From Flavobacteriales bacterium (lineage in GTDB: Bacteria > Bacteroidota > Bacteroidia > Flavobacteriales_D > Parvicellaceae): a stretch of DNA of 54,287 nt. Positions within the stretch are counted from its first letter, which is position 1. Each line of letters opens with the position of its first letter. The translations under genes and the position numbers were made by a program. The notes under the pieces are model-generated. The model did no database searches. It had not been told where the DNA came from and saw only the letters and a list, made by a program, of their open reading frames with translations. Positions 43,815 to 50,000 of the stretch are shown here, piece after piece. Location of the stretch: the NCBI GenBank assembly GCA_029251405.1, contig JAQXDK010000029.1, positions 1-54,287 on the forward strand. The letters run 5' to 3'.

Positions 43815-44984
43815 ATGAAAAAAATCCTTCGAATTATTAACAGATTTAATTTAGGAGGGCCTACTTACAATGCTGCATATCTAACAAAATATTTAGAGGA
43901 TGATTATGAGACCTTACTAATTGGAGGTAAACATGAAAAGAGCGAGAAAAGTTCAATGCATATTTTAGATAATTTAGGACTTAAACCTATTATAATTGAA
44001 GAAATGCAAAGATCCATTCATCCAATTTTGGACAGAATTGCATTAAAAAAAATAAAGGATATCATTATCGAATTCAAACCTGATATTGTACACACACATG
44101 CTGCAAAAGCAGGAGCCTTGGGAAGAAAAGCAGCTTATGACTTGGGTGTAAAACAAATATACCACACATTTCACGGACATGTTTTTCATTCTTATTTTGG
44201 AAAAATAAAAACAAATATTTATAAAAAAATAGAAAGGGATTTAGCTAAAAAAAGTACTAAAATTATCGCAATAAGCGAAATTCAAAAACAAGAACTAAGC
44301 GAAGTTCATAAAATATGTTCTAAAGAAAAAATTGAAGTTATTCCTTTAGGATTCGATCTAAAAAAATTTTATGAAAATCAAACCGAAAAAAGAAAATATT
44401 TTAGAAAAAAATGGAAAATAAAGGATGATGAAATTGCTATTGGTATAATCGGAAGATTAGTACCTATAAAAAATCATGTTTTTTTTATAGATGTTATTGA
44501 AAAAGTAATTCGTAAGTCCAATACTTCTTTAAGAATATTTATAGTAGGAGATGGTGAAGAAAAAGAGAATATTATTAGAAAAGTATCTGCATATAATTTA
44601 GACTACAGTACCGATGATAAAATAGCTACTATTCAATTTACTTCTTGGATTAAGGAAATTGATGAAGTCAACGCAGGTATGGATATAATTTGTTTGTGTT
44701 CTTTGAACGAAGGAACTCCTGTTAGTTTGATTGAAGCTCAAGCTAGTGGAAAACCAATTGTAACGACAAGAACTGGAGGAATAGAAAATATTGTTGTGGA
44801 AAATAAAACAGCATTGATTTCAGATAATAATGATTTAAATAAATTTACTGAAAATTTAATGTCCTTAATAAAAGAAAAAGATAAAAGAACTTTATTTTCT
44901 GAGTTAGCAATAAAAAAGTCAAAAGATTTTGATTACTCTATTTTAGTGAAAAATATAAAAATATTATATAAAAATACACTTTGA
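43815..44984 (+). CDS. Glycosyltransferase family 4 (exopolysaccharide)
   Basis: 389 aa, GT-B fold. N-terminal acceptor-domain start ILRIINRFNLGGPTYNAAYL, then DIVHTHAAKAGALGRKAA (about 93-110) and YHTFHGHVFHSYFG. The C-terminal donor domain has IGIIGRLVPIKNHVFFIDV (about 215) and CSLNEGTPVSLIEAQASGKP (Glu-x7-Glu, about 300). This is the WcfI/EpsD-like type that transfers a sugar to a lipid-linked precursor. First gene of a capsule/exopolysaccharide block. Donor sugar unknown. The 45 nt to the next gene contain a separate promoter. Confidence 0.92.
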   Translation: MKKILRIINRFNLGGPTYNAAYLTKYLEDDYETLLIGGKHEKSEKSSMHILDNLGLKPIIIEEMQRSIHPILDRIALKKIKDIIIEFKPDIVHTHAAKAGALGRKAAYDLGVKQIYHTFHGHVFHSYFGKIKTNIYKKIERDLAKKSTKIIAISEIQKQELSEVHKICSKEKIEVIPLGFDLKKFYENQTEKRKYFRKKWKIKDDEIAIGIIGRLVPIKNHVFFIDVIEKVIRKSNTSLRIFIVGDGEEKENIIRKVSAYNLDYSTDDKIATIQFTSWIKEIDEVNAGMDIICLCSLNEGTPVSLIEAQASGKPIVTTRTGGIENIVVENKTALISDNNDLNKFTENLMSLIKEKDKRTLFSELAIKKSKDFDYSILVKNIKILYKNTL

Positions 44985-45029: not shown

Positions 45030-45842
45030 ATGATTTCTAAAACAAACTTGATTTTAATAGCTACATTATTAATTATTGTAAGCTCTTGTACAATCAATTC
45101 AAACCGAATGCTCAGAACTCCGAAAAATTATGAGTATGATAAAATCGACAATGAATTAAGTGAACTAGAATACCAAATTGATGTCAACGACCAATTAACT
45201 TTTCAATTATATACCAACAATGGTTTTCAATTAATTGATATGTTCAGTGCCACTGCTAACGGTGGAATTCAGACTCAAAGGATGATGCAAAGTGGAGTTG
45301 CAGGTGCAGGTTTAGGTTCAGGAGGCGGTCTTTATTTAGTTCGAATAGATAGTTTAATTGAATTCCCAATAATTGGAGACATTAACTTAGTTGGAAAAAC
45401 AATAAAGGAAGCAGAAATTTATTTAGAAAATATTTTCGCAGAGTTCTATGTAGACCCATTTATAGTTTTAGGAGTAATTACCAGAAGAGTTTTTTTGTTT
45501 AGCGGGAGTTCTGGAGGAGAAGCATCTGTGGTGAATTTAGGTTTTAATAATATGACACTTTTCGAAGTTTTAGCTTCTGCTGGAGGAATAAGTTCTAGTA
45601 ACAGCTCCAAAAAAATTAAAATTATAAGAAGAACAAAAGAAGGAATCAAAATATTTAACGCTGATTTATCAACGATAAACGGTATAAATGAAGGAAATAT
45701 GATTATGCAATCTCATGATATTATTTATATAACTCCCAACTTTAATTTGGGATCAGAAATTGCACAGGATATAAATTCTGTTTTTTCCTTTATATCTACA
45801 ATATCCATAGTTTGGTTAACACTAACTCAAATAAATCAATAA
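45030..45842 (+). CDS. Wza-like polysaccharide export lipoprotein
   Basis: 270 aa. Lipobox IIVSSC (Cys 20). Poly_export domain begins EYQIDVNDQLTFQLYTNNGF (about 50) and continues through DSLIEFPIIGDINLVGKTIKEAE, then an SLBB-like segment with FLFSGSSGGEASVVNLGFNN (about 153) and LASAGGISSSNSSKKIKII. A C-terminal hydrophobic segment (about 248-266) fits the outer-membrane helix. Together with the kinase downstream it forms the export channel of a Wzx/Wzy-type polysaccharide system. Stop and next start overlap as TAATG. Confidence 0.92.
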   Translation: MISKTNLILIATLLIIVSSCTINSNRMLRTPKNYEYDKIDNELSELEYQIDVNDQLTFQLYTNNGFQLIDMFSATANGGIQTQRMMQSGVAGAGLGSGGGLYLVRIDSLIEFPIIGDINLVGKTIKEAEIYLENIFAEFYVDPFIVLGVITRRVFLFSGSSGGEASVVNLGFNNMTLFEVLASAGGISSSNSSKKIKIIRRTKEGIKIFNADLSTINGINEGNMIMQSHDIIYITPNFNLGSEIAQDINSVFSFISTISIVWLTLTQINQ

Positions 45843-48355
45843 TGAGATCAGAAGAATTTAAAAATATAGAGGATAATCTTCAGCGTTATAAGGAAAATGT
45901 TAATAGTTTAACACAAGAATTTGAACTAGGATTATTTTTATATCTCCTTAATAAAATAAAATGGTACGCGATTTTAATATTTCTGATAAGTTTTTTTTCT
46001 GCAGTGATCTTTTTAAGATATTCTCAAAAAAATTATGAAACAAGTGCCCTAATTCAAGTAGCTGTTAAAGAACAACCAAATGGGTTTGGTGATTTATATT
46101 CATATAATATTAATACCAACCTCAACTCTGAAATTGCGTTAATGAATTCACAAAAAGCAATTAAAAGAGTAATAGAAGACTTAAAATTAAAAGTATTTTA
46201 TTATTTCGAAGGAAAAATTTTAACTCGGTTCTTATATAATCAGAGTCCTTTTTTTCTTGATAATTTTTCTTTAAAAGATAAATCACTTATTTCAAAAAAT
46301 ATTTACCTAAATTTTGATGGAACTTTCTTTTATTTAACAAATAAAGAGGAAACTATAACTTATGGTAATTATATATTACCAAATAAATTTTTTTCTTCTA
46401 AGTATTTGTCAGGTAAATTAAACTTTTCAGATTGGAAAAAAACAATGGAGTCTATTGAAACTAATGAGAAATTATTTTTCAAAATTCCAACTCAAAATGA
46501 AATAAAACAAGCTATTATCAATAACCTTAATATAAATATTGAAGATCCTTCTGCCCACACCATTAGAATAATTCATAATCATACGAATCCATATTTTTCA
46601 AAAGACATATGCAATTCAATTGTTAAAATATACATGAGTTATGAAATAACTAAGAAGCAAAAAAGTACTGACAAAATTGTAAAATTTATCAATACACAAA
46701 AAGATAGTGTTAGAAATAGATTAATCAAAAGTGAAAAAGACTTGAGACTTTTTAAAAAAAATAATGATTTTAAAAATAACTTAATCAATATTACTGGTTT
46801 TAAAGAAAAAGCTGAAGAAGTAGAAAGCGAAATTGTAAAATTACAATTAGATATTGAACTTATGGACCAGTTCAGCAGCATGTTTGAAAATAATTTGTCA
46901 ACTGATCTTAATAGTAGCTCCGTAAAGAATATTTCTCTATTGACTACTATTTTTTATAATGAGTCTCTTACATCCAAAATGATTGAACAATTGCAAAAAG
47001 ATGTACTAAGAAGAGATCAATTGTTAAAAGATATAACCCCCAATAATAAAAGTATTGTTATTTTGAATGGAGAGATAGAAGAAAGTATATTGTACATTAA
47101 AAAGGCTGTTAAATTACTTAAAAAAAGCTACAGTGAAAAAGCAAAAAAATTAGAACGAAAAATCTCCTTCGTTGATTCTGAATTTTCAATAATTCCAGAA
47201 AAAGAACTTGAACTTTTAAGGCTTCAACAAGTAAAAGAAATCAATAACAAATATTATATGGAACTTTTAAATAGAGAGATAGAATACGAATTATCAAAAG
47301 CTGGAATAACTACTTATAATGAAGTTTTACAAAATGCTCCGCTTAACGAAAACCCCGTATCGCCAAATAAATATTTAGTATATAGTATATTTTTAGGAGT
47401 TGGATTTTTTATATCAATAATTATAATTTTATTAAATTATCTTACACATGACAAAATTACTGCTCTTCACGAAATAAATAAATATGCTCAAACAGAAATA
47501 TCTACTTTAGGTATGATCCCCTTTGTAAAAAGAGATATGAAAGTATCTCAACTTATTGTCGATAAAAGCCCCAAGTCCATGCTTACAGAATCTTTCAGAG
47601 CTATAAGAACCAACTTACAGTTTATTGACAACAACAAGAAATCTAAATTAATTGCAATCAGCAGTACTATATCAGGAGAAGGAAAAACTTTCTTAGCCAT
47701 CAATTTAGCAGGAATAATAGCATTTACTGGAAAAAAAGTAGTCGTAATTGATTTAGACATGAGAAAACCTAAACTCCACTTAGGTTTTGGAGTAAAAAAT
47801 AAAATTGGTATGAGTGATTTACTTTCTGGAAAAAGTATAATCAAGGACGGAATTAATAAAAGCAGTCTAAATTCTTTAGACTTCATAACTGCAGGAACTT
47901 TACCTCCAAATCCTTCAGAACTAATAATTAGCGATAAATTTGATGAAATTATAACAGAATTAAAAGAAATATACGATTATGTTGTCATTGACAACCCTCC
48001 TGTAGGATTAGTTACTGACGGTATACCCATATTACAAAAAGCAGATTATCCAATTTATGTTTTTAAAGCTAATTATTCAAGAAAGAAATTTGTCCAAAAT
48101 GTGCAAAAACTTATAAAAGAAAATGAAATAAAAAAACTTGCTGTTGTCCTTAATGGTGTAGACGCAAAAAGAAATGAATATGCTAACAAATATGGCTATG
48201 GCTACGGCTATGGCTACGGCTATGGCTATGGCTATGGCTACGGCTATGGCTATGGCTATGGCTATGGTAAATCTAATAATTCATACTATACTGAAGAGGA
48301 ATCAGACGAGAAAGACAATATTTTTAAAAAGTTAAAATCTAAATTTAAAAGGTGA
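45842..48355 (+). CDS. Wzc-like polysaccharide co-polymerase with BY-kinase domain
   Basis: 837 aa from ATG 45842 (TAATG overlap with the preceding stop); an in-frame TTG at 45812 would overlap the export gene by 31 nt. Two transmembrane helices (about 38-56 and 510-530) bracket a long periplasmic part with a coiled coil (about 280-470). The cytoplasmic kinase has Walker A ISSTISGEGKTF (about 605), Walker A' VVIDLDMRKPKLH and Walker B YVVIDNPPVGLVTDG. The C-terminal Tyr cluster is (Tyr-Gly)13 at about residues 784-809, then SYYTEEES. It controls polymer length through tyrosine autophosphorylation. The tail is encoded by a hexanucleotide repeat. Confidence 0.93.
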   Translation: MRSEEFKNIEDNLQRYKENVNSLTQEFELGLFLYLLNKIKWYAILIFLISFFSAVIFLRYSQKNYETSALIQVAVKEQPNGFGDLYSYNINTNLNSEIALMNSQKAIKRVIEDLKLKVFYYFEGKILTRFLYNQSPFFLDNFSLKDKSLISKNIYLNFDGTFFYLTNKEETITYGNYILPNKFFSSKYLSGKLNFSDWKKTMESIETNEKLFFKIPTQNEIKQAIINNLNINIEDPSAHTIRIIHNHTNPYFSKDICNSIVKIYMSYEITKKQKSTDKIVKFINTQKDSVRNRLIKSEKDLRLFKKNNDFKNNLINITGFKEKAEEVESEIVKLQLDIELMDQFSSMFENNLSTDLNSSSVKNISLLTTIFYNESLTSKMIEQLQKDVLRRDQLLKDITPNNKSIVILNGEIEESILYIKKAVKLLKKSYSEKAKKLERKISFVDSEFSIIPEKELELLRLQQVKEINNKYYMELLNREIEYELSKAGITTYNEVLQNAPLNENPVSPNKYLVYSIFLGVGFFISIIIILLNYLTHDKITALHEINKYAQTEISTLGMIPFVKRDMKVSQLIVDKSPKSMLTESFRAIRTNLQFIDNNKKSKLIAISSTISGEGKTFLAINLAGIIAFTGKKVVVIDLDMRKPKLHLGFGVKNKIGMSDLLSGKSIIKDGINKSSLNSLDFITAGTLPPNPSELIISDKFDEIITELKEIYDYVVIDNPPVGLVTDGIPILQKADYPIYVFKANYSRKKFVQNVQKLIKENEIKKLAVVLNGVDAKRNEYANKYGYGYGYGYGYGYGYGYGYGYGYGYGKSNNSYYTEEESDEKDNIFKKLKSKFKR
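48191..48268 (+). repeat. Hexanucleotide repeat (TAYGGC)13 encoding Tyr-Gly
   Basis: Thirteen consecutive six-base units TAT/TAC-GGC (the last one GGT), encoding (Tyr-Gly)13 in the kinase tail. Ten units use TAT and three use TAC. Gain or loss of units keeps the reading frame. Confidence 0.97.
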
Positions 48356-48894
48356 ATAAAAAAAAAAAAAAAATTGAGGGTGTTTATCTAATTAAACCCA
48401 AAATTTTCAAAGATGAAAGAGGTTATTTTTTTGAATCGTTTAATCAAAAGGAAATAAGTAAAAAAACAAATGTCAGTTTTGTTCAAGATAATCAATCACT
48501 TTCTTCTAAAAACATCATAAGAGGTCTTCACTTTCAAAAACCACCGTTTGCACAAGACAAATTGGTTACCGTTATCAAAGGTAGTGTTTTAGATGTAGTA
48601 GTTGATATACGAGTAAATTCAAAAACTTACGGAAAATATATTATTGTAGAATTAAATGAAGAAAATCACCATCAACTTTTCATCCCGATTGGAATGGCTC
48701 ATGGATTTTTATCATTAGAAGACCACACTATTTTTTCTTATAAATGTTCTGACTTTTACAACAAAGAATCTGAGGGAGCCATAAAATGGAATGATCCTGA
48801 TTTAAATATTAAATGGCCAATCTCTAACCCTATTTTGTCAGAAAAGGATGAAAATGCAAAAAAATTTAGTTCTTTTGTATCTCCTTTTTTTTAA
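48352..48894 (+). CDS. rmlC: dTDP-4-dehydrorhamnose 3,5-epimerase
   Basis: 180 aa from a GTG start that overlaps the kinase stop (GTGA). Cupin fold: FKDERGYFFESFN (about 19-31), IIRGLHFQKPPFAQDKLVTV (catalytic His 60, Lys 70), FIPIGMAHGFLSLED (about 110-124), YKCSDFYNKESEGAIKW (Tyr 130/136) and NDPDLNIKWP. Converts dTDP-4-keto-6-deoxyglucose toward dTDP-L-rhamnose. rmlA, rmlB and rmlD are not in the window. Codons 3-7 are all AAA inside a run of sixteen A residues, giving a Lys5 stretch. Confidence 0.94.
   Translation: MNKKKKKIEGVYLIKPKIFKDERGYFFESFNQKEISKKTNVSFVQDNQSLSSKNIIRGLHFQKPPFAQDKLVTVIKGSVLDVVVDIRVNSKTYGKYIIVELNEENHHQLFIPIGMAHGFLSLEDHTIFSYKCSDFYNKESEGAIKWNDPDLNIKWPISNPILSEKDENAKKFSSFVSPFF
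48358..48373 (+). repeat. A16 homopolymer at the start of rmlC
   Basis: Sixteen consecutive A residues begin six bases into the rmlC coding sequence. A change of one base would shift the frame right after the start codon. Confidence 0.95.
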
Positions 48895-48896
48895 AG

Positions 48897-50000
48897 ATGA
48901 ATAATTACGAATATACTTTTTTAGTCTACGCAGAATTTTTTGTTTGTATTACCCTATTTGGGTTAGTAATCAATACCATTCTACTCAAGTTTTCTAAAAC
49001 TTTAGGAATAAGAGAAAAAGAAAATACGATGATAAGATGGAGTTCAGTTTCTAAGCCAGCACTTGGAGGGATCACTTTTTTCATGAGTTTTCTAGTAAGT
49101 ACTGCGTGCTTTGGGATCTTATTTGATCATAACGAATTGTTTAAAAATGGTGAAATTATTAGTCTTATCGGCGCGCTCTGTCTAGCATTTATAATGGGCT
49201 TAGCTGATGATGCTTACGACACGAAACCTTGGTTAAAATTTTTCATCCAAATTACGTGTGCGTTAATTTTAATTTTTGGATCTCTCAAATCTGGTAATCA
49301 ATATCATATAATTTCTATTTTTGAAAATGATTATTTCAACTACTTCATCACCGTAGTTTGGGTAGTTGGTATAATGAATTCTATAAACATGCTTGATAAT
49401 ATGGACGGTATAACCACCGTCACATCCATATTCATTATCTTATCTGCATTATTCTTTTTGGCTTTTGGAAATGGATTTGAACACTACGATTTTATGATTC
49501 TACTTGGTCTTATGGGTGGATTAATTAGTTTTCTATTCTACAACTGGACACCTGCCAAAATTTATATGGGTGACTCAGGAAGCCAATTTTTAGGTTTATT
49601 ATTAGCTGTTATTGGAATAAAATATTTTTGGAACTCTCATATTTTCGAAACACAGGAGGTAATACCCAGTAGGCAAATAATTATTGTATTACTTATTTTC
49701 ATTCTGCCCATTTCTGATACTACATCCGTATTTATAAATAGAATTGCAAGAAAACAATCTCCCTTTGTTGGAGGTAAAGACCATACCACTCATCACTTAT
49801 CTTTTTATGGATTTAACAATACCCAAATTATATTTATTTATTCAGGTATTGCATTTTTATCTTCTTTAATTGCCATAGCATTATACCGGTTTGGATCGAC
49901 TTGGTCAATTACCTATTTTTTGTTTTACATAATATATATTCTTACCATTTTTTTCTCGTTGTATATTACTACTCAACAACATAAAGAATTAAGAAAATAG
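48897..50000 (+). CDS. WecA/MraY-family undecaprenyl-phosphate sugar-1-phosphate transferase
   Basis: 367 aa, about ten membrane helices. Conserved cytoplasmic loops: KPALGGITFFMSF, GLADDAYDTKPWLKF (Asp pair, about 100), NMLDNMDGITTVTSIF (about 164), YMGDSGSQFLGLLLA (about 222) and KDHTTHHLSFYG (His loop, about 293). This pattern is of the WecA/TagO type, which starts O-antigen, enterobacterial common antigen or teichoic acid by placing HexNAc-1-P on undecaprenyl phosphate; MraY is less likely given the exopolysaccharide context. It starts two bases after the rmlC stop and probably initiates the repeat unit of this cluster. Confidence 0.9.
   Translation: MNNYEYTFLVYAEFFVCITLFGLVINTILLKFSKTLGIREKENTMIRWSSVSKPALGGITFFMSFLVSTACFGILFDHNELFKNGEIISLIGALCLAFIMGLADDAYDTKPWLKFFIQITCALILIFGSLKSGNQYHIISIFENDYFNYFITVVWVVGIMNSINMLDNMDGITTVTSIFIILSALFFLAFGNGFEHYDFMILLGLMGGLISFLFYNWTPAKIYMGDSGSQFLGLLLAVIGIKYFWNSHIFETQEVIPSRQIIIVLLIFILPISDTTSVFINRIARKQSPFVGGKDHTTHHLSFYGFNNTQIIFIYSGIAFLSSLIAIALYRFGSTWSITYFLFYIIYILTIFFSLYITTQQHKELRK

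Follow-up and report, generated by a model that had tools for sequence, protein, structure and literature searches.

A Tyr-Gly array at the C-terminus of a Wzc-type BY-kinase from a Flavobacteriales bacterium: codon history and unit number among relatives

Introduction

The closest described counterpart of the protein reported here is Wzc of Escherichia coli K30. In the available text of two papers, the tail of this kinase enters the active site of a neighbouring subunit and its tyrosines are phosphorylated from the C- towards the N-terminus, the tyrosine two residues upstream sitting in a pocket (the YxY ratchet); the octamer disassembles after the fourth phosphorylation, and the 3YE mutant regained its capsule through the substitution N711Y, which adds a tyrosine completing the YxY pattern (PMC11986026, PMC8285477). 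The ratchet paper places E675 in the tyrosine pocket, and the end of the protein contains Y717/Y718 (available text of PMC11986026). What determines polymer length in Wzc systems is still debated; the ratchet model points to a role for the count of YxY steps.

Repeated Tyr-Gly units are said to be present in the tail of another BY-kinase, CpsD of Streptococcus pneumoniae, in which a (YGX)4 repeat domain was reportedly described by Morona in 2003. Unlike the array reported here, that repeat is said to have a three-residue unit in four copies and to lie on a separate kinase polypeptide. The tyrosine cluster of Porphyromonas gingivalis Ptk1 is not described as a Tyr-Gly array, and its repeat number is not discussed, in the available text of PMC4082711. 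The Akkermansia gene Amuc_1413 resembles the present case in being a Wzc/Wzz-type gene with a slippage-prone repeat; its repeat, however, is a poly-G homopolymer early in the gene that gives on/off phase variation by frameshifting (available text of PMC13055324). Open-licence papers yielded nothing directly on point on Tyr-Gly arrays or repeat-number variation in BY-kinases.

The kinase described below shares with K30 Wzc the domain order, the Walker motifs, the fold, a C-terminal tyrosine tail, the YxY spacing and a near-C-terminal Tyr-Tyr pair. The K30 tail is an irregular short cluster, whereas here 13 uniform Tyr-Gly units are followed by a spacer, a YY pair and a basic end; E675, the acidic residue of the pocket, is not conserved and Walker B reads DNPP.

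Materials and methods

The whole stretch of DNA that was analysed, termed the window, comprises 54,287 nucleotides of a marine Flavobacteriales bacterium (contig JAQXDK010000029.1 of assembly GCA_029251405.1, positions 1 to 54,287, forward strand). The assembly has 2.23 Mb in 53 contigs. Related sequences are cited by their L numbers where they have to be told apart.

Unit numbers were read from 135 relatives, and glycine codon homozygosity was determined for 113 arrays. Copies of the window (L001-L011), a duplicate of L020 (L013), a sequence with a broken frame (L057), Bacillus sequences (L035, L036 and L039) and sequences with no parsable complete tail (L028, L032, L033, L034, L037, L038, L040, L078, L135 and L160) were left out of these sets. 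Arrays with ambiguous bases were left out of the deviation and lag analyses. Close pairs were 28 disjoint pairs with a kinase identity of at least 85%; arrays of fewer than two units were left out, as were those with ambiguous bases inside them or directly downstream. The 20 arrays for which the enclosing reading frame was compared with the window kinase were picked by us from the list of Bacteroidia genomes with (YG)≥8.

Results and discussion

Kinase gene and locus

To judge from the neighbours of the kinase gene, the locus is an exopolysaccharide-type cluster with the following genes.

43815..44984, + strand: glycosyltransferase family 1/4 (PF00534, E 5e-28)
45030..45842, + strand: polysaccharide export protein of the Wza/Poly_export type (PF02563, E 2e-7)
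45842..48355, + strand: Wzc-type polysaccharide co-polymerase/BY-kinase (Pfam, TIGR01007, PDB sequence and fold matches)
48352..48894, + strand: rfbC, dTDP-4-dehydrorhamnose 3,5-epimerase (PF00908), the GTG start of which overlaps the kinase stop
48897..50000, + strand: undecaprenyl-phosphate sugar-phosphate transferase type protein (Glycos_transf_4; PF00953, E 3e-31)

The kinase reading frame reaches upstream to a TTG at 45812; the likely start is the ATG at 45842, which overlaps the stop codon (TAA) of the export gene that precedes it. The chain carries the Pfam domains Wzz, GNVR and AAA_31, all three above the Pfam cut-off, and TIGR01007 also scored above its cut-off. The best PDB sequence match was E. 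coli K30 Wzc (4.6e-55). A Foldseek comparison of the kinase part, as modelled by AlphaFold2, gave CapAB (1.5e-22) and Wzc 3la6 (5.8e-21) as the best PDB folds. The Walker motifs were located as follows.

47669..47689, + strand: Walker A (SGEGKT); E75, G76, K77 and T78 invariant in 24 aligned sequences
47750..47764, + strand: Walker A′ (DLDMR); D99, D101 and R103 invariant in 24 aligned sequences
47990..48001, + strand: Walker B (VVI-DNPP), with Asn where E. coli has Thr (DNPP versus DTPP)

A lysine stands at the position of K30 Wzc K540 in 17/17 kinases compared. The domain set, the Walker A, A′ and B residues, the Wzc/CapB-like fold and the C-terminal tyrosine cluster are those of a Wzc-type BY-kinase (PCP-2a). 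Two candidate LMW-PTP phosphatases and one of the CpsB/CapC-type PHP family were found in the assembly, all on contigs other than that of the window.

The Tyr-Gly array and the layout of the tail

The C-terminal tail of the kinase contains three features.

48191..48268, + strand: (Tyr-Gly)13 array, 13 Tyr-Gly codon pairs in succession that are read in frame with the kinase, predicted to be disordered
48284..48289, + strand: Tyr-Tyr pair followed by acidic residues, 3′ of the array (alignment of 24 kinases)
48314..48349, + strand: basic C-terminal segment, predicted as a helix with low confidence (AlphaFold2 H287-298, pLDDT 41-51)

The initial annotation had assigned a (Tyr-Gly)13 tail at 48191-48268 to a BY-kinase. 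Its coordinates and frame are exact, and the kinase domains, sequence matches and fold matches agree with the assignment. The same annotation had derived the array from a six-base repeat, a description that has to be qualified: the protein is a perfect (Tyr-Gly)13, whereas the DNA is interrupted and consists of nine TATGGC units, three TACGGC units (units 3, 5 and 9) and one TATGGT unit (unit 13), all of the changes being synonymous. With 9/13 units identical, the array departs from the perfect short tandem repeat of a simple-sequence contingency locus. Of the five tandem-repeat rows that TRF gives for the window, that of the array scores highest (133), and none of the others exceeds 59. The array is also the only place in the assembly with at least three consecutive TAYGGN units (11 overlapping matches; none in the backward control).

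The layout of the tail is conserved. In 24 aligned kinases the kinase domain is followed by an LNGV-like motif, a short linker, the array, a spacer (often absent), an aromatic pair, acidic residues and a basic end, which is present in most of them. The aromatic pair is nearly always Tyr-Tyr and its first Tyr is invariant. The pair at 48284..48289 resembles the Y717-Y718 end of K30 Wzc and, from its place in the sequence, may correspond to it.

The array has a pLDDT below 50 in the AlphaFold2 model. This predicted disorder, the regular aromatic-glycine composition and the up to eight tails per ring that would be expected if the ring is octameric as in E. coli would also suit a tail that is mainly a low-complexity segment clustering kinase rings, with phosphorylation dissolving the cluster and the unit number acting as its valence. 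We regard such a function as highly improbable, the known ratchet giving a simpler account of the YxY spacing. The reading that we favour, with moderate confidence, makes the array the autophosphorylation tail of a BY-kinase of the Wzc type (PCP-2a), taken jointly with a ratchet and with the turnover of units described below.

Distribution among relatives

A close kinase (E ≤ 1e-20) was found in 6/11 genomes of the genus, several of which are incomplete, and all six carry arrays. In the family a kinase match at E ≤ 1e-30 was found in 30/39 genomes and in the order, at E ≤ 1e-35, in 217/245. Nearly all of the tails read in relatives are rich in Tyr-Gly. The closest named relative found for the window is L020, a Crocinitomicaceae MAG. 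A scan of viral contigs for relatives found none.

Arrays of (YG)≥8 are present in 149/396 Bacteroidia genomes. The backward control matched in 2/396, in one case through a GGG array, the sequence of which itself matches in both directions. All of the 20 sampled arrays end an open reading frame that phmmer matched to the window kinase with an E-value of 4.2e-45 or better. The generalization that tyrosine clusters of BY-kinases are usually irregular, from which the initial annotation had set out, is therefore false in Bacteroidia. No array of this length was found in the phylum to which the Bacillus genome of L036 belongs (119 genomes) or in that of the Campylobacteraceae genome of L037 (121 genomes).

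The unit number ranges from 1 to 15 in 135 parsed relatives, the 13 units of the window being near the top. The same kinase carries 6-9 units in sister genera and 2-8 units in others of the family.

Many relatives in the family (L018, L019, L059-L063, L082-L096) have a second BY-kinase, about 40% identical, which also bears Tyr-Gly arrays; several of these are strongly codon-uniform. No match to this second kinase was obtained from the window genome at the thresholds applied. One kinase copy, L057 (G014), looks degraded and contains several in-frame stops (three TGA and two TAA).

Codon history of the arrays

The glycine codon GGC occupies 12/13 array positions in the window and 0/25 positions elsewhere in the fetched part of the kinase gene. 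In 30 window ORFs it makes up 6.4% of the Gly codons (65/1016); at least 12 GGC of 13 then has P ~6e-14, which excludes chance. The same counts reject a preference of the genome as the source of the array codon. Gene conversion between paralogues as the source of the uniformity was likewise rejected, because the window genome has a single such array and a single kinase match at E ≤ 1e-20.

Congeners use other glycine codons. Compared with GGC in the window, L015 and L020 have GGT, L014 and L016 GGG/GGA, and L017 GGT/GGA. The mean Gly codon identity in the six congeners is 0.74 within arrays versus 0.23 between species; the conserved Gly positions in the rest of the kinase domain give a between-species codon identity of 0.50 (145 comparisons). 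Agreement within arrays without agreement between species indicates in-frame rebuilding of the units, with selection preserving their Tyr-Gly sequence. The nearly complete lack of nonsynonymous change bears this out: deviations from the majority codon of the array comprise 572 synonymous and 29 nonsynonymous cases in arrays of at least five units, from which purifying selection on the Tyr-Gly pattern follows. In the window and four congeners, the corresponding numbers are 26 and 1.

Homogenization across the 113 arrays is modest but significant, the homozygosity being 0.425 within arrays compared with 0.328 for the Gly codons in the remainder of each gene (71/113 positive; Wilcoxon p 2e-4). 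Taken individually, 13/105 arrays are homogenized at p < 0.05 and only 7/105 at p < 0.01, so that turnover is not strong everywhere. Homogenization showed no correlation with array length (rho 0.12, p 0.20).

In 62 de-duplicated arrays, units at lag 2 share codons more often than expected (0.362 versus 0.280, p 0.002) and units at lag 1 less often (0.236 versus 0.280, p 0.004). This 12-base period over the 6-base one fits either duplication steps of two units or selection for alternating codons. In short arrays (e.g. L122-L132 and L142-L145) adjacent units avoid the same codons (lag-1 deficit p 0.002), as if alternation guarded against slipping. An apparent excess of odd codons at the ends of arrays of at least nine units (p 0.004) disappeared after de-duplication (p 0.31) and was discarded.

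Selection on the codons themselves, through translation speed or mRNA structure, might make arrays uniform in place of unit duplication, and it could produce the alternation in short arrays. Against this stand the different Gly codons of the congeners and the choice, in the window array, of a codon that is rare in the window ORFs and missing from the rest of the fetched gene; we consider codon-level selection very unlikely as the cause of the uniformity.

Changes in unit number

The window has 13 units, L020 has 11 (two of which include ambiguous bases), L014 has 13 (one of them His-Gly), L015 has 14, L016 has 15 and L017 has 13. The length has thus stayed within 11-15 units in the genus although the codons turned over. 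Long arrays are also held across five g16 species at 13-14 units, a lineage separate from that of the window. Arrays of at least 11 units cannot be placed on the kinase tree with fewer than eight label changes; the ambiguous bases in L020 probably account for one of these.

Among close pairs the unit number differs in 6/10 with long arrays (at least nine units), between species only; such copy-number differences between close relatives are one mark of a contingency locus. With short arrays it differs in 5/18 pairs and agrees in 13/18, the contrast between long and short arrays not being significant (Fisher p 0.12). Unit numbers in close pairs include 13/14 in L133/L136 (99% kinase identity), 14/13 in L111/L134, 13/12 in L025/L026, 10/9 in L059/L061 and 7/10 in L110/L115.

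The proposal that slippage adds or removes tyrosines without changing the frame was upheld in part. Whole-unit differences between species agree with it, both in the genus and in the long-array pairs, and homogenization points to repeated duplication and deletion of units; the 13/18 agreeing short-array pairs speak against a fast switch. As the frame is always preserved, the unit number would be a graded setting and not an on/off switch.

Two other explanations bear on these numbers. The first is that length is neutral: any tail with enough tyrosines works, slippage is harmless, and selection keeps the tail merely Tyr-rich and flexible. The range of 1 to 15 units across the 135 relatives and the 6-9 units on the same kinase in sister genera are in its favour, whereas the retention of 11-15 units in the genus while the units were replaced, and of long arrays across species in two separate lineages, is not. 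We give neutral length a modest chance of being correct. The second is a true contingency locus, in which the unit number would vary often within populations as a reversible dial on polysaccharide length. Close pairs only one or a few units apart, such as L133/L136, would fit such a locus. In one congener MAG 4/31 ambiguous bases fall inside the array (~70 of 3882 bases), a weak hint, with other ambiguous bases also clustering. The interruptions of the window array (three TAC and one GGT) should slow slippage, however, and close relatives with short arrays mostly agree, which makes a true contingency locus decidedly unlikely.

Proposed mechanism

In the favoured reading, a ratchet tail with turnover of its units, the array, a long uniform YxY track with Tyr at every second residue and Gly between, would operate by analogy with the phosphorylation ratchet of E. 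coli Wzc; (YG)n is the ideal form of the YxY pattern. All 13 units of the window tail have the YxY spacing of K30 Wzc. The array DNA gains or loses 6- or 12-base units in frame, presumably by slippage or unequal exchange. Codons are thereby homogenized within a species and tyrosine numbers come to differ from one species to another by a single unit or a few, with purifying selection keeping the units Tyr-Gly. A longer uniform track might allow more ratchet steps, and the unit number could set the step count and, through it, the lifetime of the octamer and the length of the polymer.

The correspondence with K30 Wzc does not extend to every residue. The E675 position is acidic in 0/17 kinases and Phe in 11, in a stretch where the alignment is loose. 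The exact selectivity step is consequently not conserved by sequence; selectivity must be of another kind here, unless the alignment is out of register. A lysine at the K701 position (the K701 side only of the D28-K701 ion pair, which links helices 1 and 23) is present in the window and four aligned congeners but not in most others.

Evolution may be able to adjust how many switchable tyrosines the tail carries. A stronger version, to which we assign a low probability, takes the array as a heritable step counter: the unit number would set how many sequential phosphorylations precede disassembly of the Wzc ring, and slippage would act as a graded dial for chain length. Such a dial, if real, would be graded and mutationally accessible, in contrast to phase switches, which are usually of the on/off type. 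With tails of 1 to 15 uniform steps on one and the same kinase, and with close species pairs differing by one unit, Bacteroidia provide natural material on which the step-number prediction can be tested directly.

A homopolymer in the adjoining gene

A second simple repeat lies next to the array gene and is separate from the array.

48358..48373, + strand: A16 homopolymer in codons 3-7 of rfbC, currently in frame

The next longest homopolymer of the window has 10 bases, and the A16 run is the longest of three A/T runs of at least 13 found in the assembly. The other two (G000; L189, L190) lie no more than ~31 bases from the end of a contig or right at it, a location that could reflect artefacts of sequencing or assembly. 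The A16 run is absent from the five congeners read. Slippage in these early codons would break the frame of rfbC, and the tract is a candidate on/off frameshifting switch or else an assembly error; this rfbC gene is the only copy found in the assembly.
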